From assembly GCA_021234155.1 (NCBI GenBank), contig JAJEKV010000226.1, positions 1 through 64,000 of the forward strand: DNA of 64,000 nt, written 5' to 3'. Within the stretch, counting starts at the first letter, position 1, and each line of letters opens with the position of its first letter. Origin of the DNA: Isoetes taiwanensis (Eukaryota; Streptophyta; Lycopodiopsida; Isoetales; Isoetaceae). The position numbers and the translations under genes are program-made. Positions 1 through 59,611 of this stretch are shown here, piece after piece. The notes beneath the pieces were generated by a model. It ran no database searches and was not told the origin of the DNA. It saw only the letters and a list, made by a program, of their open reading frames with translations.

Positions 1-2336
1 CCTTGGGGCAATCACCCTCCCATTGGGGTATCACAGCAAACCCCTCAGCTAGAATGGATTTAGGACCTCGGTTGCTTCGGGGCAACCACTCTAAACCTAA
101 ATCTTGCAAAACTTTTTCACCACAAGCACATTGATGTACAGCTTTTCCCATTTCAAGAAAAACCTTGTTTCCTCTTTTTCAATACCAAGCACAAATAAGC
201 GGGTGTGAATTTTGCTTGGGAAAAGTATGAGTGTGATCCCAACACTTGATATTAAAAGGGTGCAAAATCCTTTTTGAAGTGGGAACGGAGTTCTAGATAC
301 TTAAAAATCTATGCGACCTAGTCAAAAATTGGTCAATACTCTCTCGTGACGAGAAATTCTCAAATGTTTTGTGAGATATTATTTTTGATCTGGGACAAGG
401 GACTGATCTAATTGTTCTTGTAGGTAAAGTGCAACACCTTTTTGGGATTACTTTGAATCTTTGAAATGAGCAGTAATTTACCAGCAGCCGGTGTGTTTTT
501 GATGGCCGAGATATTTATTTATATGTTTTTTTTTTCACGAGGCGAGAATAGAAGATAATTCTTGAGGTTTTGATAATAACATATGGGGACCTTGCTAGGG
601 GTTTTGCGTGAAGATAGGTTCTTTTGACTCTTATCGGATAGCTAGGACTTAGCTTTGACAAATATTTATATGTTTTATATTTTCCTTGAATGCAAGATGA
701 CTTTCTTATGAAGCCTAAAAGTAGGATCTTTCTAATATCGCGTAGAAAAAAACTAGAACAATATTTAGCGATATGCATAACTTTCTTGAAAAGGAAGTTG
801 AGGAAAGGAAATTTTACAAAAGTCGGATTTTCATTCACTTAACAAATCATCGAGGAGTTCCACATAACTTCAAATAACTCACAATTCAGGAGTCAATAAT
901 ACTTAGGGATGGGACAGGAATAATTGGTCCAGCTTCTTTGCTCAATCAAGTAAATTGATGCAGCAAGGAAGGTCGAATTCACCGAAGATCGTATTGACAT
1001 GTATTTCGCATCCACAATCTCCCAAATGCGCCAAAAAGCCCTTGAAATTTCTGGAGGTGATTTGCCCTTTTTGAAAAATGCACAGTTCGTTCAATTCTTG
1101 CAGATCAACGGATTATCCGTCATTTAATACGGGGTTTGGAGTTCTTGGGATCACTCAAGTTAAATCGGGAGAATGCAGTCATGATTAGGTAGTTCCGGCT
1201 ACTAAAAAATCCGTTTCTTGGCACTGCAATCTTAGGGTTCTTGTTTTTCTTGTGAAAATATCCCACGGGCGGAATGGAAAAAGAAGCCAAGGTATAAATA
1301 TAGATCCATTGACCGGGGTCTTGATTCGTGGTCTCCTCCATAGCTTCGGCTCGTGTTTTCGACTTGGCATGCGGGGGCGCCACTTGGCGAAGGATGAGAG
1401 GGGTAGATAAATGGGGGGGTAGATGTAGGTAGGTTTTATCATTTTTTCAAAAGGCCCCCAAAGAAGGCCATTTAGAAGGTCGATATAACCTCTTTTTTCA
1501 AAAATGTTTGTGCGGTGGTGTGTTTTCATGTGGGCTACCGGATAGTATCATCAAATTTTCAAATGGAATACTTTGATTTTTGAAAAAAAAAATGACTAAG
1601 CATGGGGCTTGGTGAGATGGCAAAATGGTGAAGATGTGGCATAAGGGTTGTAACCATCTTTTTCCCTAGTCAAAAATGATGATTTTGGTGAAGTGGCATG
1701 AAGTATGGATGATATGGGTGACACGTGTGATATGAATGGTGAAGTGGAATTATGATGAAGTGGATGTTTGTATCTTTTTGCAATTTCTTTTGACATGAAA
1801 ATACTACTAGGAGCTCATTTCTTGCATAGTTGGACATGTCTTGCTTTTGTCCTTCTTTTAAGACCTAGTAAGTATAACAAGGTACTTTTGAAATGAATTC
1901 ATGAGGCTCCTAATGCTTGACTTTGGTGAGTGGGTGGATGGAGCATGGGTGTGTGTTTCATTTGACTAGAAAAAATGTTACCAACACCATAGTATGTAAT
2001 GAGAGGAGATGGAAATGTGGAAAAAAAAAGGCTAGGCATGGAATGGAGATTAAGAACTTTAGAATATCAACTTCAATGCTCAAATCAAATGTCATACCAA
2101 GTTGTGATCTTGCAATTCTTCAATAGGGCTTCAAATTTAGTAACTTGCCTTGTGACCTTCCATTTTAGCCAAAATACTCCTTTGATGTTTTCTCAAGTGA
2201 ATGTCCTTCTTTGGTTCTTCAAGTCCTTGTGTCTTTTGTAGCTTTTTGAAAGATCTTCAAGTTGCAACTTCAAATACTCCTTATGTGCTTATTGAACCAT
2301 GTATTTGGAAATGCTAATGGTTCTTCCATGCTGCAC
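1..2336 (-). repeat. LTR of unit A
   Basis: The segment matches 7,139-9,624 and 15,837-18,231 throughout and lies downstream of the truncated integrase. The first 40 bases are a garbled version of the LTR end that reads TGTTGAGGGTAAT at 7,139 on the plus strand. A TATA box sits at about 1,293. The right edge is set by the deletion break next to a conserved hairpin, so the true U3 start is not proven. Confidence 0.6.
1293..1303 (-). promoter_or_regulatory. TATA box in LTR of unit A
   Basis: The minus strand reads CTATATTTATACC. The same box recurs at the same place in the LTRs of B, C, C' and B', which marks the U3/R region and gives the transcription direction. Confidence 0.6.
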
Positions 2337-2399
2337 CATGAGTTTGAGAGTTCTTACTTTGAGAGTTGCTAGCAATGTAGCTATAACATCATTCGGCCC

Positions 2400-2966
2400 C
2401 ATGGCTGCCTCTATCGGATATAAGTTTGAAGGGGACACCAAATCAGCCTGAGATATTTTCATGGATGAACCTAGCGATTGGTATAAGCATTTGCTTGTCT
2501 CGGGGGGTAGCCTTCAGCCCATTTTGTAAATAATCGGTAGCTACTAAGAATATCTTTGGTCTTTGTCGCGAGAAGAAGGTGGATCTGAGGTCCTATGAAA
2601 TCAAGTCCCCGGACTTGGAAGGGGTCTGGAGAAGTTATGGCGATTAAAGGCCGGTGGTTGAAGAATTCTTCTACCAAAAATTTGGCATTTATGGCGGCAT
2701 TTGATTGTTTCATAGCGGTCCTTGAAGAGTTGGCCAATAATAACCAGCCCTCAAGATTTTTTTTTTTCTTTGTAGTATCTGCGACAAAATGTCCATACTC
2801 CTTCATGACATGCTTCTAATACTAACTTAGCTTCTTCTTCATCAACACACCTCAAAATGATACCCTCTTTGTCATACACGCATAACACATTATCTATTAG
2901 CTTGAACTTATTGCATTTTCCTTGAACCTTCTTTTTGGTTGGAGTTGAGTTCTTACGGCATCTCAT
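2400..2966 (-). pseudogene. Integrase, unit A, C-terminally deleted
   Basis: This is the gypsy integrase N-terminal half. A linker rich in Lys and Arg leads into an HHCC zinc-binding region beginning ACHEGV and ending CCHKCQIFG in the better copies. The start of the catalytic core (LDFIGP, where the D is the first catalytic residue) follows. Frames change several times: 2,751-2,966 covers the linker and His pair, and 2,471-2,806 part of the Cys pair and core. The rest of the core and the C-terminal domain are missing because of the deletion at about 2,336. It would process LTR ends and join them to target DNA if intact. Confidence 0.7.
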
Positions 2967-3099
2967 TTGATTCCAAATATCTTCTTATATTAAACTTGCC
3001 AATCGCCTCTGCACAAGGTTTACATTAACACTGCATCATCTTGAACCTCATGAGTCAACCCTTCTTCATCTTCTGCTCAAACAAAATATTAGTCAAATA

Positions 3100-5099: not shown

Positions 5100-5841
5100 T
5101 AACTTCATATACCCCAAGTTGATTGGATATCAACACATCTTCTTCAATGAAGTTAAAAAATCAAACTCCCCAAGCTTGTTGTAGATAACAATTTTTTTTT
5201 CTTCCATCGGTTATGGTACATTCCCCTTTTGACCAAGCAGTGCGGCATCTCTTGTTGTGACCATCTCCTTCCTAAAGTAAATCATAAATATCTGCTTTTC
5301 ATCCATTCCTTCAAATGCAACCACAACAAAATTAGCGACCACAACAATTCCTTCAATATCTATTGGTACTTTACTTACAATCCCTATGGGATTAATTCTT
5401 GAATTAGAAAGATTTCAGTACCATAGGGCTTTCTTGTCTACCTCTAAGCCACATTGTTTCATCACATGATGTGGCATAACATTTAAGGTGATCCCCATCC
5501 AACAATACCTTAGACAAAGCTTTCTTCCCAATGTTGCTGCACATGTGAAGGCACCGGGATCATGTTCATCTTGTACTAGCATTTGCTCCTCAATGTGATT
5601 TGTAAGCATAATTTGTTCCTCTTGTGTGAGACAAACCTGTTCATCTTGAGTCAAGTTAAGCATCTTCTTTCTATAAGTGGGTGCAATCCTTAATAATGTG
5701 AGCAAATCTACACTAACTTTAGAATTTTTCATAAGTACTTCAAAGTCATCACCATCTTTATCTTTTTTAGGAATTTCGACAAGGCCACGGGAGGTACAAA
5801 ATTTGCTTACCATCTTGTGCGGGTTGCTTGTTTTCACTCAT
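5100..5841 (-). pseudogene. Aspartic protease region, unit A
   Basis: The frame opens with MSENKQ at 5,841. It runs through a Gln- and Glu-rich linker (LTQDEQVCLTQEEQ) to a retropepsin-like motif around 5,490-5,505. In the better copies this reads LLDGGSPLN, the DGGS form of the active-site DSG/DTG motif common in plant gypsy elements. The ORF at 5,415-5,837 loses the motif by a frameshift. After the protease the frame continues as an unassigned segment to the RNase H at about 5,100. Confidence 0.65.
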
Positions 5842-5869
5842 TTTACCTTTAACAGCGCTAGCTTCTATT

Positions 5870-7095
5870 TCTTCTTGAGATAACCCCTTGTCTTTCATTC
5901 CCCTTGTATGCCACGACCATAATTTCTTCTGTTCTTCAAATTCTGCATAAATCTGATAGGATAGCTAACTTAGGACAAATATTTGTGATGCTTGATGGGC
6001 TCGGCAGATTTTGGCTTTCTTTGTCTTGCAAAATACTCTTTAACACTACATCGTCTTCATAATGTCTGTAGCTTTACAAAAGGCACAAAGCAGGACACTC
6101 TTTTTCCATAATGGCCTCTCTTGTTGCATTTGAGGCATATCGTACCAACAAACATCGAGGAAGAATGTGTTTCTCTCATACAATGTGCACAAAGGGGATA
6201 GCTTTTTTCTTTCAGGTCTAGATGCTTTCAATTCTTGAAGTTGCTTGGTGACCTCAAGTAAACCTCGACAACTTTGTCAATCTACGCCTTGGTAGTGCTT
6301 GCGATCTTGTCGATTCTTGGTTTGCCTTGGGTTTCTTCTTATCTTTTTGTCGGCATATCTTGGTATAGCATCAGCACCCATATATTCTGTTCAAAATCTG
6401 GGAAGAAAGGATCATTAGTGGTATGAGTATCATCGGTAAATAGGAAAGCACATCAGCAATCTCAATGGCCTTGTTAAAAGCTTTATGGATGGTTGCAAAC
6501 CCCTCTGTTTGTAAATCTTTAGCATCTTCTGTGTACTCTTGATCTACCAGTCGGACCCTTATGAAAGATGCAACAAGGTGTAAGGTATGGTTAGGTACTT
6601 GATTAGTTTGGCATTTTGTTAAGTACACATGAAATCTTTCCACATATTGGTGAGCAGTCTCACCATTTCTAATATGAAAGGTTTGTAATTCAAAATGAGA
6701 TCTTGAGGGTCATAAACCTTACCAAATCTAGATAAAAACCTTTTGACAATTTCATCCCATGTGTTGATACCATCACTTATCACATACTCCAACCAAGCCC
6801 TTACTTCATCATTTTTGAAGCACTTCTTGAATTCAGCAAACTTAGTCCCTTTCTTGTGTCAGTATTCTTGATAATATTCATCAAAGATCTTAAGAAAGTT
6901 GTTAGCACTCATGCTAGAATCAAATGTAGGAGCAGGAATAGGGACATTGAGTTCAAAGTATTGGCGGGCATACTAGCATTGAGATTTCTTGACTTATTAG
7001 GATGTCTGAGGATCACCTTGAGGAGTAGCTTGTGTTTTTGTATTGTCTTGTACCTCGGCATGGTGGGATGTTTGACATTTAGATCTAGGAGCCAT
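5870..7095 (-). pseudogene. Gag, unit A
   Basis: The first ATG after the LTR is at 7,095 (MAPR). The middle part resembles the retrotransposon gag capsid domain: a stretch like FAEFKKCFKNDE, then WDEIVKRFLSRFGKVYDPQ (about 6,850-6,700), then a polar stretch to about 6,371. Near the C terminus (about 6,080) is a possible zinc knuckle, CAFCK with a downstream GHYE, in which the last Cys of CCHC is replaced by Asp in the better copies. At least four frameshifts split it. Confidence 0.7.
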
Positions 7096-7138
7096 AGTTC
7101 CCAAGAACCGGGTTGGATCTCGGTAGGAGCCTCCAAGA

Positions 7139-9624
7139 TGTTGAGGGTAATCTGGCAAAACCCTCAACTAGAATGGTTTAGGACCTCAGGTTGCTTGAGG
7201 GCAACCACTCTAAACCTAAATCTTGCAAAACTTTTCACCACAAGCTTTGTTAGTACAGACTTTCCCATTTCAAGAAAAACCTTGTTTCCTCTTTTCAATA
7301 CCAAGCACAAATAAGCTGGTGAATTTTACTTGGGAAAGTATGAGTGTGATCCCAACACTTGATATTAAAGAGTGCAAAATCCTTTTTGAAGTCAGGGCAG
7401 TTCTAGATACTTGAAAAATCTATGCGACCTAGTCAAAAATTGGTCAATACTCTCGTGAGGCGAGAAATTCTCAAATGTTTTGTGAGATATTATTTTTTGA
7501 TGCGGGACAGCTGGGGACTGATCTAATTGTTCTTGTAGGTAAAGTGCAACACCTTTTTGGGGTTTACTTTGAATCTTTGAATGAGCAAGAGAGTAATTTA
7601 CCTTGACAATTTGTTTTTGATGTGAGAGATATTTATTTATATGTTTTTGTTTTTCACGAGGCGAGAATAGAAGATAATTCTGCGAGGTTTTGATAATAAC
7701 ATATGGGTGAACCTTTGCTAGAGAGTTTTGTAGCGAAAAGATAGGTTCTTTTTGACTCTTATCGGATAGCTAGGACTTAGCTTTGACAAATATTTATATG
7801 TTTTATGTTTTCTTTGAATGCAAGATGACTATTCTTATGAAGCCTAAGTAGGATCTTTCTAATATCATTAAAAAAAAAACTAGAACAATATTTAGCGGAT
7901 ATGCATAACTTTCTTGAAAAGGAAGTTGAAAAGAAATTTTACCAAAGTCGGTTTTCATTCACTTAACAAATCATCTGGGAGTTCCACATAACTTCAAATA
8001 ACTCACAATTCGAGGAGTCAATAATACTTAGGGATCCGGATTAGGGTTTTGAGAATAATTGCCAACTAAGCCAAATGAAGATTTCTTGCTCAATCAAGTA
8101 AATTGATGCAGCAAGGAAGGTCAAATTCGTTTAGTGCAACAAATCTTTCCAACCGAAGATCATTATTGACATGTATGGTTTTACCATTTTTTACTATCAT
8201 CCACAATCTCCCAAATGCATAAAAGCCCTTGAAATTTCTGGGTCGATTTGCCCCTTTTTTGAAAATGCTTGGTTCTGTTCCAATTCTTGCAAGATCCAGC
8301 AGTTATCCGTCATTTCATTTTACGGGTTTGGAGTTCTTGGGATCACTCAAGTTAAATCGGGAGAATGCAGTCATGATTAGGTAGTTCCGGCTACTAAAAA
8401 TCCGTTTCTTGGCACTGCAAATCTTAGGGTTCTTGTTTTTCTTGTGAAGAAATATCCACAGGCGGAATGGAAAAAAAAAGCCAAGGTATAAATATAGATC
8501 CATTGACCAGTCTTACGATTCGTGGTCTCCTCCCCGCCAAGCTTCGGCTCGTGTTTGACTTGGCATGCCGAGGGGCGCCACTTGGCGAAGGAGGATGAGA
8601 GGGTAGATAAATGGGGGTAGATGTAGGTAGGTTTTATCATTTTTTTTTTCAAAAAGCCGCAGCGCCCCAAGAAGGCCATTTAGAAGGTCGATATAACCTC
8701 TTTTTTCAAAAATGTTTGTGCCAGGTGGCATGTTTTCATGTGGGCTACCAGATAGTATCATCAAATTTTCAAATGGAATACTTTGATTTTTTGGAAAAAA
8801 AAAATGACTAAGCATGGGGCTTGGTGAGGTGGTGGCAAAAATGGTGAAGATGTGGCACTTAAGGGTTGGTAACCATCTTTTCCCTAGTCAAAATGATGAT
8901 TTTGGTGAAGTGGCATGAAGTATGGATGATATGGGTGACACGTGTGATATGAATGGTGAAGTGGAATTATGAATGATGAAGTGGATGTTTGTATCTTTTG
9001 CAATTTCTTTTGACATGAAATGCTACTAGGGAGCTCATTTCTTGCATAGTTGGACATGTCTTGCTTTTGTCCTTCTTTTGTAAGACCTAGTAAGTATAAC
9101 TCTAGGTACTTTTGAAATGAATTCATGAGGCTCCCTAATGCTTGACTTTGGTGAGTGGGTGGATGGAGCATGGAGTGTGTGTTTCATTTGACTAGGGAAA
9201 AAAATGTTACCAACACCATAGTATGTAATGAGAGGAGATGGAAATGTGGAAAAAAAGAAGGCTAGACATGGAATGGGACGACTCAAGATATAGAATGAAA
9301 AAAGAATGGCTAGGCAATTCTTTTAGAACTTTAGAATATCAACTTCAATGCTCAAATCAGAAATGTCATACCAAGTTGTGATCTTGCAAATCTTCAATAG
9401 GGCTTCAAATTTAGTAACTTGCCTTGTGACCTTCCATTTAGCCAAAATACTCCTTTGATGTTTTCTCAAGTGAATGTCCTTCTTTGGTTCTTCAAGTCCT
9501 TGTGTCTTTTGTAGCTTTTTGAAAGATCTTCAAAGTTGCAACTTCAAATACTCCTTATGTGCTTATTGAACCATGTATTTGGAAATGCTAATGGTTCTTC
9601 CATGCTGCCATAGTGGCGACATCA
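7139..9624 (-). repeat. LTR of unit B
   Basis: The left edge is TGTTGAGGGTAAT at 7,139; the minus-strand LTR therefore ends CTCAACA, directly before the gag leader. An independent diverged copy of this LTR at 48,741-49,588 stops matching at the same base, which fixes that end. The right edge is placed at a hairpin (plus strand ATGCTGCCA...TGGCGACAT) that would give a TG start on the minus strand; this end is tentative. Confidence 0.65.
8487..8496 (-). promoter_or_regulatory. TATA box in LTR of unit B
   Basis: TATATTTATA on the minus strand, about 1.35 kb upstream of the LTR 3' end, at the same place as in the other LTRs. Confidence 0.6.
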
Positions 9625-45242: not shown

Positions 45243-48087
45243 GGCTCATAATTCATGACCAAGCTTCAAAATGTCGGTTAGGAGCCCGATATCTTATGAC
45301 CATTGCATCATGTCTTCCAGCCCGTAGAAATTTGAAGAGATAACCTCTAAAGCGTTAGTCCATGCGGTTTCTATAGCACGTGCATTTGGCAAACCTTTCC
45401 ATCCTACATGGCCTGCATCTTCCAAGACCGCGTGCCTTCCCCAAGGGTTGTGCAACAAGTGATTTCTTTGCCAATATACATTTCATGGTTGCTCGTTTCT
45501 CATAATTTTCAATTTGCTCAACCTTTTCCCAAAGTTAGAAGAAGAAGATATATAGGCGATAATCGGTCCCCAACCCTATGTACTTGCGACTTGTGTTGGT
45601 TTGTATTACCTCTGGGTGCAGTGAGAACTCTATCTCTTAGTTTCTTAATAGTCTTTTGTGTTTTAGGTCCATTCATCTACAAAGCAAAATGAAGATCACT
45701 TAATTATGTATACACACTCATAATTGTACCAATAAGAAAGACAAGAAAAAAGCAGTACTCAAGTGCAATGAACAAAAACTTTGATACATATATTCATAAC
45801 ATTTGAATTTGTACATCGGTCAAAGCCTGTACCAACAATGGGCGGTCGAGAGGCCAATAACATGATGGCGATTTCTCCATTCCTTGCTCCATATATTGAC
45901 TAAATTTAGGCAAAGAGCACCCAAGTTGCTGCCATAGTTTGCCGAAGAAAATCTTTTCCACACCTGCTTGATATGCTATGGGCCGCATTAGTCATTGGAT
46001 GCTCTTTCACATAAACTATACCATCTTTGGCCATTTTGAATCCATTAAGCCATGGAATGAGCTCCATGACAAGTAATCGTCACCGGCTAATATCGGTGTC
46101 CAAGAGAAAAAGGACATATGTAGCTTCCTACGAGGATTCAAAGTGGATTTGTATCTTTTCGTCATCATCGTAATCAGGATGTATGTCCATAGTACTCTGG
46201 GGTACTCTTTCCATACCACGACTAATGGTTTCACAAAACAACCCCTTTTGAGGTTCAAGAGGGTGTCCGTGTGGCGAGTCCAACAACTTGCTCCGGCTAT
46301 AAACAAACTTCAGCTTTATGGAAAAAGCATCACAAATATGTTCCACAATTGGGTGAAGATTTTTAGAAGTGAGTGAAGACCAGGATGGCAACATCAAACC
46401 CTTACATTACAAATGCTAACTTGATGATGCTAACCACGGCCTGCGAGAAAAAAACACATTTCCTATATTAAATTGAAGCTCATCTTTACGGATCTGTTGG
46501 TATCTTGAGTTAATATTTTCATTCTTGTGCACACTCTTGCCCAACCATGAATTTAAGTCAAAGATAATGAGCTTTCTCCCTGAATTAGATGATGATTCAC
46601 CAAAAGAAAACACTTGAGATTCACAATTTATAATTACATTTCAGATCACACAATTGAGAAAACACATTGATAATTACACGATTGTTATTTGCACAGGTGT
46701 AAGTGAGACAAGTACCCAGGTATCCAGTTAGGGAATGTAGATCTATGCCCAAAAAAAAGCACATATATGTAAAAAATGCACATACTTATGAATCCATCTA
46801 CAGATGCACTCTAAAGATAAATGCGTGTACATCTATTTTGCAGATGTAGACTCCATTAGAGACATGTACAAGCCGATACAAGCAAAGGTCAAGCTCAAAA
46901 ATAAAAGCATCAATAAACAAGCAAATATATGCCTATGTACCTACCTCGCTTTGAGATGTACACTAAAAGTTATACATGTACAAGGAATAGCAATGCCTTT
47001 GAAAGCCATACATGTAGAACTATGCAGATTACAATAACAAATATGAATTAAGAGAAATATAAGTTTAAATTAGTTGAAAGCAATGCATACCTTTCACAAA
47101 GAGGGAAAAACCAAGCTGAATTCGAATGCCCTCATCCCGGATGCAACCTTTTATGCAATTACGTCTTTCATGGACGAGATAACACAAGCGAGAAGAGGCA
47201 ATAAGCATCTACGCATGGAGCTAGCGAACAACAAACCCAGTTTGCCAAAGCCTTGGCCACAACAGTACATGAACCGAATGTGATGAACTGCTCTATAGAA
47301 GTAGCTCCTACGAGGGGTAGGGCCTCGGGTGATGTTAACAATAGGTCTGCTCTCCCCATGAAATCCAAAATCATGGAATGCCTTTGCTGAACCAATTCAA
47401 TGCAATTAAGTTTTTTCCTTTGCTTGTTCAATTGAGATTTCATGCCTTTCAATTTCTTTAGTTGCTTCCGCAAACCAATTTTCTAACTTAGAAGAGTGCG
47501 CTCTTTATCATGTCTACTCATAACCAAGTCTTCCAACTTGTACTTCAACACTCGAAGATAACTTGATTTTCAGCCCGGGATTGGGACAATTTGTCAAATT
47601 CTGTTTTGTCTCATCTATTTTTGAGCAGGTCTGCGCAGATCTTGGATAAGCGTATCCTTTCTACCCTCAATCCGGTGATGACCTTCAATGCATCCCTCCT
47701 TTTTTCTTCCAGTGCTTCTACTTCATTCAATAGGTTAGTTTTCTCCTCCAACCCATGCTTAAGTAACTGCTTTATTGTGTCAACATCTGATCTAGAATAA
47801 CCCAGGGCTCTAATATTCTGCTGCAATACGATGTCCTGTTTGATAGTTGAGGATTTACCTGTTGTAGGGTCCTCTGTAACGTCTGAAATGAGGGTTTTGG
47901 CAAGATCTTTAGCGGTCCTAGCCACGTCCATCCAATCAACAAGCCGTCCCTTCAAGTGAAGAGCAAATGCTCTGGCAAAATAGGTAGAAATATAATGGTT
48001 TGTAACCTGTTTCTTGCCATAAACCAATTCATAATATTTGAAAAAATCATCTTTCCATGCGTTCTAGATTCTCCCTTCCTTGAATCC
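45243..48087 (-). pseudogene. Coiled-coil/FCP1-like gene, error-rich copy 1
   Basis: Duplicate of 51,649-54,470. Exon 1 is 48,087-47,091, exon 2 about 46,600-45,800 and exon 3 about 45,675-45,243. The 5' end of the gene is missing because the copy stops at 48,087. Near 48,040 it keeps a run of six A that leaves the frame open, where the clean copy has five. Confidence 0.6.
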
Positions 48088-51404: not shown

Positions 51405-51460
51405 TCAATGTACATAAGATGTACAACAGATGTACATCTTATGTACATCTGTTGTACATT
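51405..51460. repeat. Two overlapping alternative hairpins made of TGTACA motifs
   Basis: Hairpin 1: ATAAGATGTAC (51,414-51,424) pairs with GTACATCTTAT (51,432-51,442), 11 bp, 7-base loop. Hairpin 2: ACAACAGATGTAC (51,423-51,435) pairs with GTACATCTGTTGT (51,443-51,455), 13 bp, 7-base loop. They share bases and cannot form together. The cluster lies 100 bp after the plus-strand gene and 190 bp beyond the end of the convergent minus-strand gene. Confidence 0.8.
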
Positions 51461-51648: not shown

Positions 51649-54600
51649 TCATAATTCATGACCAAGCTTCAAAATGTCAGTAGGAGCCTGATATCTTATG
51701 ACCATTGCATCATGTCTTCCAGCCCGCCGAGAGGCTGAAGAGATAACCTCTAAAGCAGTAGTCCATGCGGTTTCTATAGCACGTGCCACTGGCAAACCTT
51801 TCCATCCTACATGGCCTGCATCTTCCAAGACACGTGCCTTCCCCCAAGGGTTGTGCAACAAGTGATTTGCTGCCAATATACATTTCATGGTTGCTCGTTT
51901 CTCATAATTTTCAATTTGCTCAACCTTTTCCCAAAGTTCAGGAACAGCAGTATAGAGGCGATAATCGGTCCCCAACCCTATGTACTTGCAGCTTGTGTTG
52001 TTTTTTATTATTACCTCGGGTGCAGTGAGAACTCTATCTCTTAGTTTCTTAATAGTCTTTTGTGTTCAGTCCATTCATCTACAAAGCAAATGAAGATCAC
52101 TTAATTATGTATACACACTCATAATTGTACCAATAAGAAAGACAAGAAAAAAGCAGTACTCAAGTGCAATGAACAAAAACTTTGATACATATATTCATAA
52201 CATTTGAATTTGTACATCAGTCAAAGCTGTGTACCAACAATGGGCGGTCGAGAGGCCAATAACATGATGGCGTTTCTCCATTCCTTGCTCCATATATTGA
52301 CTAAATTTAGGCAGTGAGCACCCAAGTTGCTGCCATAGTTTGCCCGACAAAATCTGTTCCACCGCCTTTCGATATGCTATACACGCATTAGTCATTGGAT
52401 GCTCTTTCACATAAACTATACCATCTTCGGCCATTTTGAATCCATTAAGCCATGGAATGAGCTCCATGACAAGTAATCTGTCACCAGCTAATATCGGTGT
52501 CCAAGAGAAAAAAGGACATATGTAGCTTCCCTCTGAGGATTCAAAGTGGATTTGTATCTTTTCGTCATCGATCGAGCTGTATGTCCATAGTACTCTGGGT
52601 ACTCTTTCCATACCACGACTAATGGTTTCACAAACAACCCCTTTTGAGGGTTCAAGGGGGTGTCCGTGTGGCAGAGTCCAACACTGCTCCTGGCTATAAA
52701 CAAACTTCAGCTTTATGGAAAAAGCATCACAAATATGTTCCACAATTGGGTGAAGATTTTTAGAAGTGAGTGAAGACCAGATGGCAACATCAAACCCTTC
52801 TGTTACAAATGCTAACAGTGATGCTAACCCTGGCCGCCAAGTAAAAAACACGTTTCCTATATTAAATTGAAGCTCATCTTTCTGGATCTGTTGGTATCTT
52901 GAGTTAATATTTTCATTCTTGTGCACACTCTTGCCCAACACAGAATTTAAGTCAAAGATAATGAGCTTTCTCCCTGAATTAGATGATTCACCTGTCAGCA
53001 AGAAAACACTTGAGATTCACAATTTATAATTACATTTCAGATCACACAATTGAGAAAACACATTGATAATTACACGATTGTTATTTGCACAGGTGTAAGT
53101 GAGACAAGTACCCAGGTATCCAGTTAGGGAATGTAGATCTATGCCCAAAAAAAAGCACATATATGTAAAAAATGCACATACTTATGAATCCATCTACAGA
53201 TGCACTCTAAAGATAAATGCGTGTACATCTATTTGCAGATGTAGACTCCATTAGAGACATGTACAACTGATACAACTGCAGTCCAAGCTCAAAAATAAAA
53301 GCATCAATAAACAAGCAAATATATGCCTATGTACCTCTGCTTACAGATGTACACTAAAAGTTATACATGTACAAGGAATAGCAATGCACTGAAAGCCATA
53401 CATGTAGAACTATGCAGATTACAATAACAAATATGAATTAAGAGAAATATAAGTTTAAATTAGTTGAAAGCAATGCATACCTTTCACTGTGAGGGAAACC
53501 AAGCTGAATTCGAATGCCCTCATCCCGGATGCAACCTTTTATGCAATTTGTCTTTCATGGACGAGATAACACAAGCGAGAAGAGGCAATAAGCATCTACG
53601 CATGGAGCTAGCAACAACAAACCGGTTTTTGCCAAAGCCTTGGCCACAACAGGTACATGAACTGAATGTGATGAACTGCTCTATAGAAGTAGCTCCTACA
53701 GGGTAGGGCCTCGGGTGCAGAACAATAGGTCCTGCTCTCCCCATGAAATCCAAAATCTGTGAATGCCTTTGCTGAACCAATTCAATGCAATTAAGTTTTT
53801 CCTTTGCTTGTTCAATTGAGATTTCATGCCTTTCAATTTCTTTAGTTGCTTCCTGCAAACCAATTTCTAACTTAGAAGAGTGCCGCTCTTTATCATGTCT
53901 ACTCATAACCAAGTCTTCCAACTTGTACTTCAACACTCCGAAGATAACTTGATTTTCAGCAGGATCCTGGGACAATTTGTCAAATTCCTGTTTTGTCTCA
54001 TCTATTTTCCTCGGCGGTCTGGCTGCAGATCTTAGGATAAGCGTATCCTTTCTACCCTCAATCCGGCTGATGACCTTCAATGCATCCCTCCTTTTTTCTT
54101 CCAGTGCTTCTACTTCATTCAATAGGTTAGTTTTCTCCTCCAACCCATGCTTAAGTAACTGCTTTATTGTGTCAACATCTGATCTAGAATAACCCGGGGC
54201 TCTAATATTACTGGCTGCAATACGATGTCTGTTTGATAGTTGAGGATTTTGTTGTAGGGTCCTCTCGTAACGTCACGAAATGAGGGTTTTGGCAAGATCT
54301 TTAGCGGTCCTAGCCACGTCCATCCAATCAACAAGCCGTCCCTTCAAGTGAAGAGCAAATGCTCGGCAAAATAGGTAGAAATATAATGGTTTGTAACTTT
54401 GTTTCTTGCCATAAACCAATTCATAATATTTGAAAAATCATCTTTCCATGCGTTCTAGATTCTCCTTCCTTGAATCGTCTTTTTTTTGGAGCTTCACCCC
54501 ATACCTCGTTCATAACCATCTCTAGGTTGGGTATATGGGCCTCTGCATGTTTATCACAGAGAGGTCTTTGGCTTGGATCACGAGAACCCAAGCGTAAACT

Positions 54601-54920: not shown

Positions 54921-55409
54921 ACACCCTTTCATGCTTTTACCCCTGAAGGAATTTACCAGGCGGGTATCGTTGTGAATATGAAGAAGGTTCTCAAGAACTA
55001 TCGCAATGATTGGCTCCGTGTGGTTCTTGAGGACATGAATGAACAAAGGATAATTATCTACTATGTGGACTGGAAGTTTTATGACCCCAATCTGATGTCT
55101 GCTAGTATTGCCAATGTACCTAGTTCGGCCAAGAAGCAAGGTTGAACGCTGCCTTCTTATAACAACTTTGCGGAAGCAGACATCAAAGGACCAGATGAAA
55201 TCTTGAGGGGCTACAATATTCTTCGTAAGCGTATGAACGAGTCAAAAAACTCGTCTTCATTCGTTGTTAAGGCATTAGCCTCTCAGAAACCTCCCGTCAT
55301 TGTGGACACGGTCTGGCTTCGGACAGTTACCAAGAAGAAGTCAAGACAAACTAAAGAGGCTATTGCAGCCGAAAAAGACTCCTCTTCTGGTACTGAAGAT
55401 GTTGGCCAA

Positions 55410-55660
55410 GAACTAGAGGAAGGAAAAGCCACTGGCAAGGATAAAGGTAAGAGGAAGAATCACAAAGATCCTGATAAAGAAAAGAAAGAAAGAAAAGATA
55501 AGAAATTGAAGGACAGGGAAAGGAAGGAAGGAAGAGGGCATAAGGAAGGAAGGGCAGCACAGAAAAAGGAAGGAAGGGAAGGTGACAGAAGAGATCGAAG
55601 GAAAAAAGAAAAGAAGAAGAAGCACAGGCTAGAGACCTCTGAGAAGGCTAGCACCCCTAA
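55410..55660 (+). other. Charged low-complexity stretch
   Basis: Purine-rich DNA encoding mixed Lys, Arg, Glu and Asp (for example KEKKERKDKKLKDRERKEG). It links the N-terminal part to the ParB-like domain and would be disordered and DNA- or RNA-binding. Long frames on the opposite strand here (Phe/Leu/Ser-rich) are its shadows. Confidence 0.7.
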
Positions 55661-56489
55661 AAAAACAATAGAGAGAAATTCAGACTCCTAGCCCTGTGCA
55701 AGTCCAAGCATGATGGAAATGAACAACGCGCAGGCGACTGGAAGTGGTGGTGACAATCCTGCAAGCCCATCACATACTAAGGATTTTGCAGGCACACCTG
55801 CCAGAAGGGTTACCTCTGAGCAGCCTAAAGAGCATAGGCTAACATTGAGAATAGCCCAGCACTTGCTCGAAGTGCCTTCGAATCTTAAGGTGGAAAGGTC
55901 AGAAGAGGAAAAGATGGCAGAAACAACGTTACAGAAGATCTATGACCACCGCCATCTTTTTCCTTTGGGCATCACATTCATCAAACGAATAAACATGTTC
56001 CAGCTATACCAAGGGCCACCAAATCTAACATCTAGGCCAAGGAATATGGAGCACGTGAAGACGTTAGTGGATTCCTTCCAGAGAGACCCACATCCTGTGT
56101 TTACTCCCGCGGATGTGATTCTATTTCATCCCCTCACAAACAAACTGGTCCCTTGGAAAACTGAGAATGACCTCATGGGGATGCACTATTATATAGTGAA
56201 TGGCAATCACTCAGTTTTGGCTGCTCAGCTTATATGTAAAAGACTCGGTACACCAAAGTCCCAAGAACAGATGGCAAAGATTTATGAGTTTCGATTTTGC
56301 GGAGTCTTATCTGGTACAATCAACGAGCAAGAATGCCTGCATCTTAGTTGTGAAGTCAATGACATCGCTGCCAAGACTATCTTCAAGGAGCCTTACATTT
56401 ATAAAATAACCCACCTGCGGCACCAGTATGCTCTCTGAGGGAAGCCTGATCCATCGGATCGTGGTCAATCACGATCAGAACCCTATAAG

Positions 56490-56790
56490 GTAATTAGTGT
56501 CATTTGTTGGCTTTTTTATTATGAAATGGTGCCGTAATGCCATTTGGCGAGGAAATGGCGTCGTGGCGGGATACCAGAGCATAGTAGCACTGGCATCCTG
56601 CAGGCAGCTAACTGCATGCAATACAGGTCCCGAACCGAACTGGCTAGGAAGAGGGGAAAGCAAGCAATGCCATGTGATCTAATGACCTAATCGGTCAAGT
56701 ATGCGCCATGACGCCATTTCCTCACCAAATGGCGCCACGGTGCCATTTCCTTCTTATTTGCATTCAAAACTGAATTCTTCTTGTTTCCAG
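56490..56790 (+). other. Intron in the ParB/methyltransferase-like gene
   Basis: AAG|GTAATT donor at 56,490 and TTCTTGTTTCCAG acceptor ending at 56,790. The frames on both sides (GQSRSEPYK before, RYLALAEVTMRG after) join without a shift. Most of the intron is a MITE-like inverted repeat. Confidence 0.7.
56523..56749. mobile_element. MITE-like inverted repeat inside the intron
   Basis: 227 bp with terminal arms of about 47 bp: GAAATGGTGCCGTAATGCC... at 56,523 and the inverse of GAAATGGCACCGTGGCGCC... ending at 56,749, with about seven mismatches. No coding capacity. Target-site duplication not clear. The same core word, ATGGCGCCA, recurs at 58,542 and 58,588. Confidence 0.6.
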
Positions 56791-58358
56791 CGTTATCTGG
56801 CTTTGGCTGAAGTTACCATGCGTGGTAAGCAACTGAAAGATTTTAACCAGTGGGTCTTCATGCCTGAAGATATTTTTTAGCTATTCCTGTCCCTATGGAA
56901 CTTGTGGAAGGCTAGCAAGCTAAAAGATAACAAGGGACAAATTATCATCTGTACCTGGGCAAAAGACAGTGACTACTTCAGTCAGACCTACCTGAGGTAC
57001 ATGAGGGGTCTCGACTATGAAGACAGCCGGGTTTTGTTCTAGGAAGTGCTGGATGGGAAGACCTACGTAAAGGTCACCAGTGATTATACAGGTGAGCACT
57101 TCTTCAAGACAAGGGCAAAGACACTAAGATCTATAGCGTTCTTGAAGAAGGAGATTTTTGATTATGTGAATGAGAATTTCCCGAAGAAGTATACATCCTT
57201 CACAGATTTGAGGACTGTCGTGCCGGGCTTTGACGATGCCGACTTGATTTCCATGGCCACTTTGCATAATAAGTGGGTTACAGAAGGAGTGACCAAGGAA
57301 GGAGTTTATGGTAACGTGCCGCCTGCATTGGCAAGATTTATACGCAATGCTGTCTTGCAGAGAGAGGATATTGAAGACTTTCGTTGCGAAGTTGAACTGA
57401 CAGATAGCAGAGGGCAAATTGTTTGCACTCCTGTACCAGTATCCTTGATTGTTTTGGACACTAGAGGCATAATCCAATGTGGGACAAAACCACACTATCT
57501 AATTTTTTTAATACAGTTGTAAAGACACCACATCTGATTCTTTTTGGATAGTGCGCTTTGCAAGGCCAGAGCATAATTTCTTGCTTTCTTCTGTGTTGGA
57601 TAAGCTGGACTCCAAGTCCAGAGTTTATATTGGCATATATGAGGACGAATATAAGAATCCGCCTGCCACAAGGATTCAAGAGCCACATGCACTTGTATAT
57701 GTCACAAAAATTCAGCCCACTGCTGTCTCTGTCGAAGAAATTGATCTCAGATTCTCGTTTGCCAGTCATCCTCAAGAACTGCCACCAATTCCAGCACGTA
57801 ATAAAGAAGAGGCAGATGGGAAGAGCGAGGCCATGGCGCAGAAACTCTTCAACAGCAGATTTAGGTATAGCTGGCAAGGCTTGCTAGGGGACGTAATCAT
57901 GAGAAACCAGCTGGGGCCTGCCACATGTTCTTATCTCGTGCAGAAGCTGGTACCGCCAGGAACAGGAGTGTTTGATTACTTCTCATGTGGTTCGTTTGGT
58001 CGGGCTGTATTGATCCATAAGAGATTTTGTATTGTGTTCGAAAGTGACCCGGCTAAGTGAGTGCCTGCAAGGCATTCTTGATAGGCTTGACCGCCTCCTG
58101 AATCCTATCATCGCTGCAGTCCCTGTGACCGAGAAATAAGGTGCTGTTGTTGAAGAAGCTGTAGATCAATCAAGTCATTCGATACCTGAAGATGTTCTCG
58201 ATGTTGACTATGATGTGATCAAGAATACTGAATTCAATCTGGACATTCTCAATGACCCCAACTTCATTGCCACTAGATTTGAGACATTTCAAGAAGATCC
58301 TATGGCCAGGCCATCCAGCCATGGCACTGGCGCTGGGGAACCTGATCCTACTGAGTAA

Positions 58359-59611
58359 ACTGAATTCTCTCCAGAAATGGAAATGTAAATTGTACAATAA
58401 TACTTTTGTTTATAGACTCTCTCTTCCAAGTCTTAGCTTGTGTGGCAAATTTATGAATATACAAATATATGAATATACAAATTTTGCTAATTTTGTAATC
58501 TAATGTTTCTTTAGCTCCATTATATGCACTGTCAATAATTTTAATGGCGCCAAGAAATGTCACTTTAGATACATTTTTTAACTTAATGGCGCCATAATTG
58601 GTCAAAAATTGGTCATAAAATGGACTAAAAAGTAATTTCGTCCCTAATTGGAATCATGAAATTTCTCATTTTAATGAAAATGTGCTTAACAAGTCATAGT
58701 CATTTGTTTCAGAGGGTGTGTTAGAATGAATGAAACATATGATTATTTAGGACACATGTCATCATAGTAGAGACATGTATGTGTCAGTGTAGAAGTGTGC
58801 ATGGGATCTACTAGAAGTGTAATCAGGTCACTTCAGTTTAATCTAAGTTTTATCTCGTTTGCCCTCTTTGACATTTTTGCTTCTAGTGCTGATATCTTCT
58901 CTGAGATCATCAATTCTAATAATATCATGGTTCTGTGCTTAGAATAGGTCTGGCCTTTTTAGTATATGACAGAGTTAGATGCTGCTTATGGGATGATTGC
59001 TTTTTGCTTTTTGTCTCATATAGTCATTGACTTATGTTTTCATAGTTAAAATGCTTTGGTCTTCTACTAGTTTGGATGAAATGGCCAATTGCATATACTT
59101 TTACTATTAACCAAGTGAAGCTGCTAATTGCTAAAATAGTAATTGGTTACATGCATATGGATTAAATGGCCAAGTGCATATGCTTTTAACTATTAACTGA
59201 GTCTACAGGGAAAGACTTATGGCATACTAGCTGATACATTTCTGAAAATTTAGTGTATCAATTGGGACTAGCTGCGCATGTGCTAGGTATAAATGTATGG
59301 ACTTATGTACGCTTGAAGTTAGGCATATTTTCAACTTTACCCTCATAATTTTCACAATTCCTTAAATGCCAATACTTAACTACGATCTAGCTAGTTAAAC
59401 AATAAAAATTTCCATTCTCTGATTATTGTATCCTTTATCTTTGACAAAGGATTGATTATGAAGCCAGAGGCAAAGTTCCATAAAAATCCTTATGACACTT
59501 CCAAAAACATTATTTAAACATCGGCATGCCAAACAAAATCCTTACAATATGTAAACTTAGACCCTTTCAAATGCAATAATTTATTGTGCATGGTTCAGCT
59601 CGAATGAGCAT
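58359..59611. other. AT-rich noncoding stretch with a candidate LTR start
   Basis: No supported gene. CAGAGGGTG followed by TGTTAGAATGAATG at 58,710-58,732 looks like a purine tract plus LTR start in the plus direction, about 360 bp after the methyltransferase-like gene, and TATAAAT occurs at 59,288. No second LTR copy is visible in the window. Two ATGGCGCCA words at 58,542-58,600 could be a small remnant of the MITE family. Confidence 0.3.

Follow-up and report, generated by a model that had tools for sequence, protein, structure and literature searches.

A ParB- and methyltransferase-like gene with matched palindrome arrays in DNA transposons of Isoetes taiwanensis

Herein, we report that positions 54947–58687 on the forward strand of the window (the whole stretch of Isoetes taiwanensis DNA analysed, 64,000 nucleotides of contig JAJEKV010000226.1) are the 5′-truncated, decayed right part of a DNA transposon, designated family I. 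The element encodes a protein of ~1,090 aa with a ParB-like domain followed by a permuted N4/N6 methyltransferase-like domain, and the genome also contains a second family, family II, which has the same layout with canonical methyltransferase motifs. The 24-bp perfect palindrome differs between the two families and forms arrays at two places, upstream of the ParB gene and inside its intron. The explanation that we favour, with modest confidence and from sequence comparison, is that the window holds a decayed fragment of a transposon whose ParB-like protein would bind the element's own arrays and regulate the transposon. A bacterial-style DNA-binding and methyltransferase-like gene lying beside its own candidate binding-site palindromes suggests a means by which elements of this kind may achieve self-recognition and self-regulation.

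The extent of the window copy was determined by comparison with six other copies of family I (L009–L014). In five of these copies, the similarity began at 54947/54948 (the exception, L013, began at 55008), and in five it extended to 58687/58688, L012 being rearranged. A preliminary description had placed the locus at 54921–58358; homologous sequence does lie inside that span, but it starts at 54947/54948, and the right terminus of the element is at 58687. The motifs named there were found where they had been placed, VILFHPLT...YYIVNGNHS in 55692–56438, LDTRGI at the motif IV position and FSCGSFGRAVL...ESDP within the motif I block (Table 1). The copy was clearly decayed, with in-frame stops in both exons and the frame broken between 57472 and 57554 and again after 58060. 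When the genome was searched for paralogs, the window ParB reading frame had 150 matches including itself (next best E = 1.4e-142) and the motif I reading frame had 151, indicating a family of many copies. A chance origin of the motifs was ruled out by copy number, collinearity, and shuffles.

Table 1. Features of the family I copy in the window, with positions counted along the whole stretch
Feature	Position	Strand	Basis or remark
Family I transposon fragment	54947..58687	+	Collinearity with L009–L014
Exon 1, ParB-MTase-like gene	54948..56489	+	5′ end missing; stops at 55143, 55689, 56436; frames against open copies
ParB-like domain	55962..56435	+	Z against family II ParB; A1 alignment; without Pfam match
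Intron, phase-0 GT-AG	56490..56790	+	301 bp, GT at 56490, AG at 56790; decayed palindromes inside
Exon 2	56791..58358	+	Methyltransferase-like region and acidic tail; stops at 56878, 57040; broken frame
Motif IV position	57454..57471	+	LDTRGI instead of DPPY
Motif I block	57968..58057	+	VFDYFSCGSFGRAVL...VFESDPAK; altered glycine loop
C-terminal acidic tail	58140..58358	+	NTEFNLDILNDPNFIATRFETF...
Right terminal inverted repeat	58658..58687	-	AAGCACATTTTCATTAAAATGAGAAATTTC on minus strand; matches right ends of L007, L009, L010, L011, L013, L014

In L009, the protein of 1090 aa is encoded by two exons (553 + 537 aa) separated by an intron of 97 bp (exon 1 end 4420, exon 2 start 4518). The GT-AG intron proposed earlier between the ParB and methyltransferase parts of the window copy fitted its borders in phase 0, and its splice sites are kept in other copies: the donor GT was present in all five copies printed (L010, L012, L017–L019) and the acceptor CAG in 9 of 10, with CAA in L018. 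In L009, L011, L013, and L014, the frame runs on with V as the GT codon at the donor. Two inverted arms in the window intron (56523–56568 and 56704–56749) were 85% complementary; an unrelated MITE was rejected as their origin because the arms bear the element's own palindrome motif. The acidic C-terminal tail might act as an activation domain.

The Pfam searches by which the earlier assignment was to be checked returned neither a ParB nor a methyltransferase match for the window reading frames; the assignment depends on relatives. For the ParB part, the window sequence aligned with three family II ParB sequences at Z 7.1–8.8, a score reached by 0 of 1000 shuffles each. Between the two families generally, Z was 5.2–10.1 in eight of nine pairs and 3.5 in one, and the score of L018 against L031 was reached by 9 of 1000 shuffles. 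Alignment of the ParB profiles of families I and II with hhalign, from very shallow alignments, gave P = 0.0028, and family II weakly matched ParB-like partition proteins in PHROG (0.018, 0.031, and 0.29). Neither family matched Pfam ParB_N in the searches made, and a whole-genome search with ParB_N gave 0 matches (2 candidates scored). There was no ParB among the matches of the PDB sequence searches, and the single protein P0003 matched other PDB proteins at E of 0.39 and above. An AlphaFold model from a single sequence was uninformative (mean pLDDT 41.8). An old horizontal transfer, as put forward earlier, would have come from a phage or bacterium; viral and prokaryotic contigs scanned with back-translated patterns confirmed no relative, and tblastn in phages found none for ParB. 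For the methyltransferase part, 151 phage records had an E of 10 or below, the best of them weak (E = 0.5); among the best 20 of the 151, 15 were annotated as DNA methylase or methyltransferase.

The methyltransferase-like part of family I has the order IV–X–I of permuted N4/N6 DNA methyltransferases (PF01555) by similarity and spacing, as the preliminary description had recognised together with the ParB-like domain and a mobile setting. The distance from motif IV to motif I was 172–174 residues in five family I copies and 174 in Mx8 Mox. Pfam N6_N4_Mtase was matched, with E up to 10 allowed, by three of ten family I members (best E = 0.0038) and PHROG DNA methyltransferase by four of ten (best 1.5e-4), and the best PDB match of the family I profile was the RsrI methylase (E = 0.09). 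In shuffle tests, the methyltransferase part of L020, a sister copy, aligned with four phage methylases at Z 8.7–11.5 and with four family II sequences at Z 7.7–10.6 (0 of 300 shuffles in each case). L009 scored Z 8.9, 9.0, 5.2, and 2.9 against the phage methylases, the last reached by 4 of 300 shuffles, and L018, which stops short of motif I, scored Z 5.1–8.3. Against family II, the result for L009 and L018 was not clear, as the score was reached by 6 to 29 of 300 shuffles; hhalign of the methyltransferase parts of the two families, again from very shallow alignments, found nothing.

The catalytic motif IV, (D/N/S)PP(Y/F/W), is lacking in family I. It had been suggested that intact relatives be inspected for DPPY or DPPW; DPPY occurred in 0 of 15 readable family I copies (L007 and L020 being unreadable at this site and outside the 15), and 14 carried LD[TSA]R. 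Considering that the first pattern required LD, 18 loci were then searched in six frames for [DNS][PL]P[YFW], which matched nowhere at the motif IV site and only elsewhere. Motif I also departs from the SAM-binding FxGxG, reading FSCGS or FSGGA (VLDFFSGGAF in the sister subfamily). Family II, in comparison, matched Pfam N6_N4_Mtase above the cut-off (E = 2.9e-17), with motif IV ADLPY (ADLPYGF) in the three loci that have that exon intact and motif I FSGSG in four of four (VLDAFSGSGTT). Judging from these motifs, the family I branch is probably a pseudoenzyme, and the family II protein could methylate. For the ParB exon, every one of the 19 pairs whose dS exceeded 0.3 had a dN/dS of 0.11–0.22, and close pairs reached up to 0.55; for the MTase exon, six pairs gave 0.28–0.50. 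The values of family I are thus well below 1 despite the lost motif IV and the altered motif I.

Two full copies of family I were 11.3 and 11.8 kb long. All three elements for which both ends were available showed short inverted termini and target site duplications of 4 bp (ACTT, GAAA, and TACT, read by eye). A genome-wide search that allowed up to 2 mismatches gave 461 left termini, with 0 for the control. An antisense DUF7869 gene (PF25273, E = 1.3e-29), the presumed transposase gene, lies upstream of the ParB-MTase-like gene and diverges from it. Across the genome, the positions of 150 DUF7869 and 149 ParB matches were compared: 41 of the former had one of the latter no more than 30 kb away, where uniform placement would give 0.8. 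Among these 41 pairs, 38 were on opposite strands, 40 had DUF7869 upstream, and 27 were 5.4–6.9 kb apart. A DDE_1-like reading frame near element B, named by eye, was discarded as its transposase because it lies outside the element. Family II also has a DUF7869 match (1.7e-35); no pair of its methyltransferase and DUF7869 matches was within 30 kb among the matches listed, down to C1083:1797024, and no consistent TIR or TSD was found at its termini.

The palindromes of families I and II have 649 and 1,474 exact copies in the genome, respectively. Over the first 1 kb upstream of the gene, 61 were counted across 14 of 14 loci, with 0.47 expected, these loci being related copies of two families and not independent. 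Of 11 family I copies, 8 had palindrome I no more than 6 kb away, compared with 0 of 10 family II copies; for palindrome II at the same distance, the counts were 6 of 7 family II copies and 0 of 6 family I copies. Among the matches listed, each palindrome lay near its own family and never near the other. As a dimer, the ParB-like protein would bind its own palindromes, and once bound, it would control the element promoters, whether through autoregulation, through activation, or through protection against host silencing. The methyltransferase fold of family I would be no more than a scaffold that binds DNA or a cofactor; that of family II may also methylate bases at or near the palindromes. A wider reading, which we hold more tentatively, is that these eukaryotic transposons possess a self-recognition system of a ParB-like reader and matched promoter palindromes, in which the writer is canonical in one family and dead in its sister, where the protein is now purely a reader and regulator, and reader and palindromes have co-diverged within one genome.

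Other roles were considered. The ParB-like part could be a nickase or a nucleotide-driven nuclease that aids excision, replication, or copying of the transposon, as the ParB-adenine methylase Bce_0392 of Bacillus cereus is reported to nick DNA non-specifically (PMC5512222). However, the arrays are located upstream of the gene and in the intron, not at the left terminus, so regulation fits better, and we consider such a nuclease unlikely. It is quite improbable that the DUF7869 protein or a host factor binds the palindromes and the ParB-MTase gene is a passenger. In family I, arrays are also found past the antisense reading frames on their upstream side and thus face both genes, so that their position is silent on which protein binds; but in both families, whose palindromes differ, arrays are kept directly upstream of and inside the ParB gene, and dN/dS is below 1. 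Very doubtful is an active self-marking enzyme, one that would find the element through ParB and write N6-methyladenine or N4-methylcytosine on it through the methyltransferase, as proposed for similar Ectocarpus proteins (PMC12477816): domain order, motif spacing, and the two family II motifs fit it, but the window's own family lacks DPPY in 15 of 15 readable copies and has an altered glycine loop. The earlier idea that an intact relative is a transposon marking its own DNA therefore holds in part: relatives with long open frames do sit in a transposon, but family I itself is unlikely to mark DNA, given the missing DPPY, whereas family II could.

Under regulation by a self-binding ParB-like protein, the locus would show a way for a mobile element to tell which copies are its own and to escape host silencing or turn it to use. 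It is disputed whether the nuclear DNA of plants contains functional N6-methyladenine or N4-methylcytosine, and what the writer would be. Isoetes offers a natural comparison, as a vascular plant in which abundant transposons encode a canonical methyltransferase of bacterial type alongside a catalytically degenerate sister family, and the palindromes are a cheap, concrete handle on what the ParB-like part binds.

Among known systems, TnpA of En/Spm offers a parallel: it too is the second protein encoded by a DNA transposon of plants, and is presumed to target clustered short sites within that element. It is an unrelated protein with subterminal sites, whereas the Isoetes sites are mostly in the intron and upstream of the gene. 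Bce_0392 has the same domain combination as the Isoetes protein, and in Mx8 Mox motif IV likewise precedes motif I, at a similar distance. Unlike these and RsrI, family I lacks the catalytic motif IV, has eukaryotic introns, and resides in a transposon. The viral mariner elements Mariner-2_PGv and Mariner-1_OLpv are DNA transposons with a methyltransferase gene (PMC3627910), but theirs are of Methyltransf_26 or C5-cytosine types, and a ParB part is not mentioned in the relevant portions of that paper. Sola elements can exceed 15 kb and are present in Physcomitrella (PMC10741241), and a Sola1 element of S. rosetta has 4 in the TSD column (PMC6875170). Family I shares 4-bp target duplications and TIRs with Sola, but its presumed transposase is recognised only as DUF7869, for which no literature mention was found. 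Close in layout are algal transposons with ParB-methyltransferase accessory proteins, namely Sola1-1_Ec32 of Ectocarpus and green and red algal cases cited with it (PMC12477816). As there, both domains are in one protein (1104 aa, versus 1090 aa in Isoetes), encoded opposite to the transposase, presumed in Isoetes, within a large DNA transposon. The portions of PMC12477816 describing Sola1-1_Ec32 mention neither methyltransferase loss nor arrays, and our literature search found no report of vascular-plant occurrence, a degenerate branch, or matched palindromes. Compared with the algal elements, those of Isoetes occur in a vascular plant, in two families and many copies, with motif IV lost in family I and with matched arrays of 24-bp palindromes.

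The preliminary description had placed a ParB-like signature, a motif IV position, a motif I block and an intron in the window, and all of them were found there as described. The copy in the window shows decay in the form of five in-frame stop codons and a broken frame. It is truncated on its left at 54947 and reaches the common right end of its family (family I) at 58687. When the genome (1,658,258,908 bases in 1,110 contigs) was searched, there were at least 150 matches to the ORF at 55692-56438 and at least 151 to the ORF at 57554-58060, itself included in each case and with the best 150 of 4,439 and of 2,278 first-look candidates scored, respectively. For a number of these matches, the surrounding frame is open over 400-600 codons. 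The reading VLDTRGIIQCGTKPHYL, hence the frame break, is identical in the relative L006 (contig C179) and in the window at ~57454-57490, and the two copies may share descent from one already broken copy.

Six 10-kb pieces, two of them extended by 10 kb on the upstream side, and five more pieces from the left side revealed the element, of which A and B are full copies. Its left end is AAGCACAATTTCATTATAATGGGAAAATTT and its right end, read inward, is AAGCACAATTTCATTAAAATGAGAAATTTC. A 4-bp flank duplication (ACTT, GAAA and TACT) was seen by eye in all three elements with both ends in hand, namely A, B and a copy at 7.25 Mb of contig C1034. With up to two mismatches, the left end occurred 461 times in the genome, versus 0 for the reversed control.

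A minus-strand gene of element B matched Pfam DUF7869 (E=1.3e-29), and its product is presumed to be the transposase. For two antisense frames further upstream, the best Pfam match was not significant (E 0.053), and they were assigned to this gene by position only. Among the 150 DUF7869 matches listed, 41 lay within 30 kb of one of 149 other listed ParB matches, compared with 0.8 expected under uniform placement. In these 41 pairs, DUF7869 was on the opposite strand in 38, upstream in 40 and 5.4-6.9 kb away in 27; thus, the association is not accidental. Short AGATCAAGTAGC- and AAGTAGCAAG-like repeats, present in 9-13 copies each in A and in B and absent from the rest of the window, could be transposase sites. 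Pfam also recognised an NLI-interacting-factor (CTD phosphatase-like) domain (PF03031, E=2.4e-8) in a minus-strand ORF of the window, likely a host gene or host-gene relic adjoining the element.

Features of the elements, their palindromes and neighbouring sequences
Feature	Location or sequence	Remark
Element A	C1030	full copy, 11,324 bp
Element B	C1079	full copy, 11,831 bp
Palindrome words, family I	CAAATGGCGCCATGGCGCCATTTG	
Palindrome words, subfamily 2	CAAATGGCGC-4-GCGCCATTTG	
Palindrome words, family II	AAAGTGTATTCCGGAATACACTTT	
A, palindrome cluster	element position 5372-5715	
A, palindrome cluster	7030-7501	just ahead of ParB gene (start ~7.6 kb)
A, further sites		one in ParB gene intron; two half-like near right end
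B, first palindrome cluster	5783-6116	just past upstream end of antisense frames (reach ~5.7 kb)
ORF with NLI-interacting-factor domain	window 52195-53016	minus strand
Long imperfect palindrome	window 51407-51460	AATGTACATAAGATGTACAACAGATGTACATCT...
90-bp repeat	window 46616-46705, 53012-53101	two copies
90-bp repeat	C1030:18433210-18433293	outside element A
Open frame, 352 codons	L012 7372-8430	downstream of rearranged family I copy
DDE_1 transposase-like ORF (Pogo/CENP-B-like)	L032 7188-7469	by eye; near ParB-MTase element
DDE_1 transposase-like ORF (Pogo/CENP-B-like)	L016 ~1804-3072	by eye; near ParB-MTase element, outside element B

With the methionine of MLTDRNW taken as the start, the protein of the family I copy L009 has 553 + 537 = 1090 aa, and its gene has a single phase-0 intron of 97 bp. 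In family I, an N-terminal region, a lysine-rich linker and the ParB-like domain precede the intron position, followed by the methyltransferase (MTase)-like region (motif IV position, motif X-like, motif I) and an acidic tail. L017-L020 form a second subfamily, whose ParB part shares 55% identity with that of the window copy. Its motif IV is LDAR, and its motif I is VLDFFSGGAF, where the first subfamily has FDYFSCGSF (FHYFSCGSF in L010). Motif IV was readable in 15 distinct copies (window, L002, L003, L004, L006, L008-L014, L017, L018 and L019; L007 and L020, not readable there, were left out). The site was LD[TSA]R in 14, the frame of L019 being lost just after LD, and DPPY in none of the 15. 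The motif IV-to-I spacing was 172-174 residues in five family I copies, like the 174 of Mx8 Mox; in two methylases of mycobacteriophages it was 283 and 291. For the ParB exon, each of the 19 pairs with dS > 0.3 had a pairwise dN/dS of 0.11-0.22, and closer pairs ranged over 0.13-0.55; the MTase exon gave 0.28-0.50 in six pairs, and dS was saturated between the two subfamilies. These values suggest that the degenerate MTase part is still constrained, although less than the ParB part. DNA methylation by this protein is not plausible.

A second family (family II) with the same layout came from a genome scan with PF01555, in which at least 150 loci exceeded the curated cut-off (150/150 of those scored, out of 1,443 candidates); four of them were read. 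The family's ParB-MTase protein, encoded by a multi-exon gene, contains VLGGNHSF in its ParB part. Motif IV is ADLPYGF in all three loci with that exon intact (it is absent from L032), and motif I is VLDAFSGSGTT in all four. The MTase part matched Pfam N6_N4_Mtase (2.9e-17) and a PHROG DNA methyltransferase (1.2e-19), and matches to the PHROG ParB-like partition protein were at 0.018, 0.031 and 0.29. Judged from these motifs, DNA methylation by family II is plausible. Both loci extended upstream had an antisense gene there, one being DUF7869 (1.7e-35) and the other showing the same residues by eye. The termini of family II were sought and could not be resolved. Near its right end, a palindrome ACGGGAGTGCTGCAGCACTCCCGT (exact at L031 5987, variants at L032 6304 and, flipped, L033 6673), with TTTGCAA a few bases past it, marks a possible terminal hairpin.

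Family II appears to provide the bridge from the ParB and MTase-like parts of the window to known domains. Compared with three ParB sequences of family II, that of the window scored Z 7.1-8.8 (0/1000 shuffles reached each). For the L020 MTase part, Z was 7.7-10.6 with four family II sequences and, with four phage methylases, 8.7-11.5 (0/300 shuffles each). Weaker scores came from the L009 and L018 MTase parts against family II (only Z 1.5-3.1) and from the L018 against the L031 ParB (Z 3.5).

Each family has its own 24-bp perfect palindrome. With at most one mismatch and overlapping half-sites included, ATGGCGCCAT was found at 30 places in A and 36 in B, versus a Markov expectation of 0.4 for A and one occurrence in the 60 kb of the rest of the window. 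A motif-free scan gave 110 24-nt palindromes in 14 loci, and 101 contained the half-site words of the respective family. Directly upstream of the ParB gene, whose start is approximate in several loci, a stretch of 1 kb had 61 versus 0.47 expected, with at least one in all 14 loci, which are related copies rather than independent cases; of 54 background bins of 1 kb in the window, 6 contain such a palindrome. Exact genome copies numbered 649 for palindrome I and 1,474 for palindrome II (reversed controls, 0). On the listed contigs, palindrome I lay within 6 kb of 8/11 family I copies (the window copy being among the other three) and 0/10 family II copies, and palindrome II within 6 kb of 6/7 family II and 0/6 family I copies. 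Of the 50 palindrome I sites listed, 36 had a listed terminus or match of family I no more than 15 kb away.

With at most one mismatch, the first 5 kb of A and of B had no ATGGCGCCAT site. Because the arrays lie upstream of the gene and in its intron, not at the left terminus, their placement speaks against simple sites of transposase binding and in favour of operator sites. The ParB-like domain is the obvious candidate for binding the arrays, since a single ParB-like protein goes with a single palindrome in either family. The protein would dimerise on its own family's palindromes and, once bound, might bring about activation and anti-silencing; the acidic tail could, as a guess from composition, be an activation domain.

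Algal cases of ParB-methyltransferases are reportedly covered by Iyer et al. 2011 and Petroll et al. 2025, which the Ectocarpus transposon paper cites. A search of open-licence literature in partial texts found neither elements of this type described from a vascular plant, nor a branch with degenerate catalytic motifs, nor palindromes matched to such elements. According to excerpts of the respective papers, viral mariner elements carry other methyltransferases (PMC3627910), a Bacillus cereus ParB-methylase was reported to nick DNA (PMC5512222), and Sola elements have 4-bp TSDs (PMC10741241; PMC6875170). The Sola TSD agrees with the 4-bp duplications of family I, and the DUF7869 protein might be a Sola transposase.
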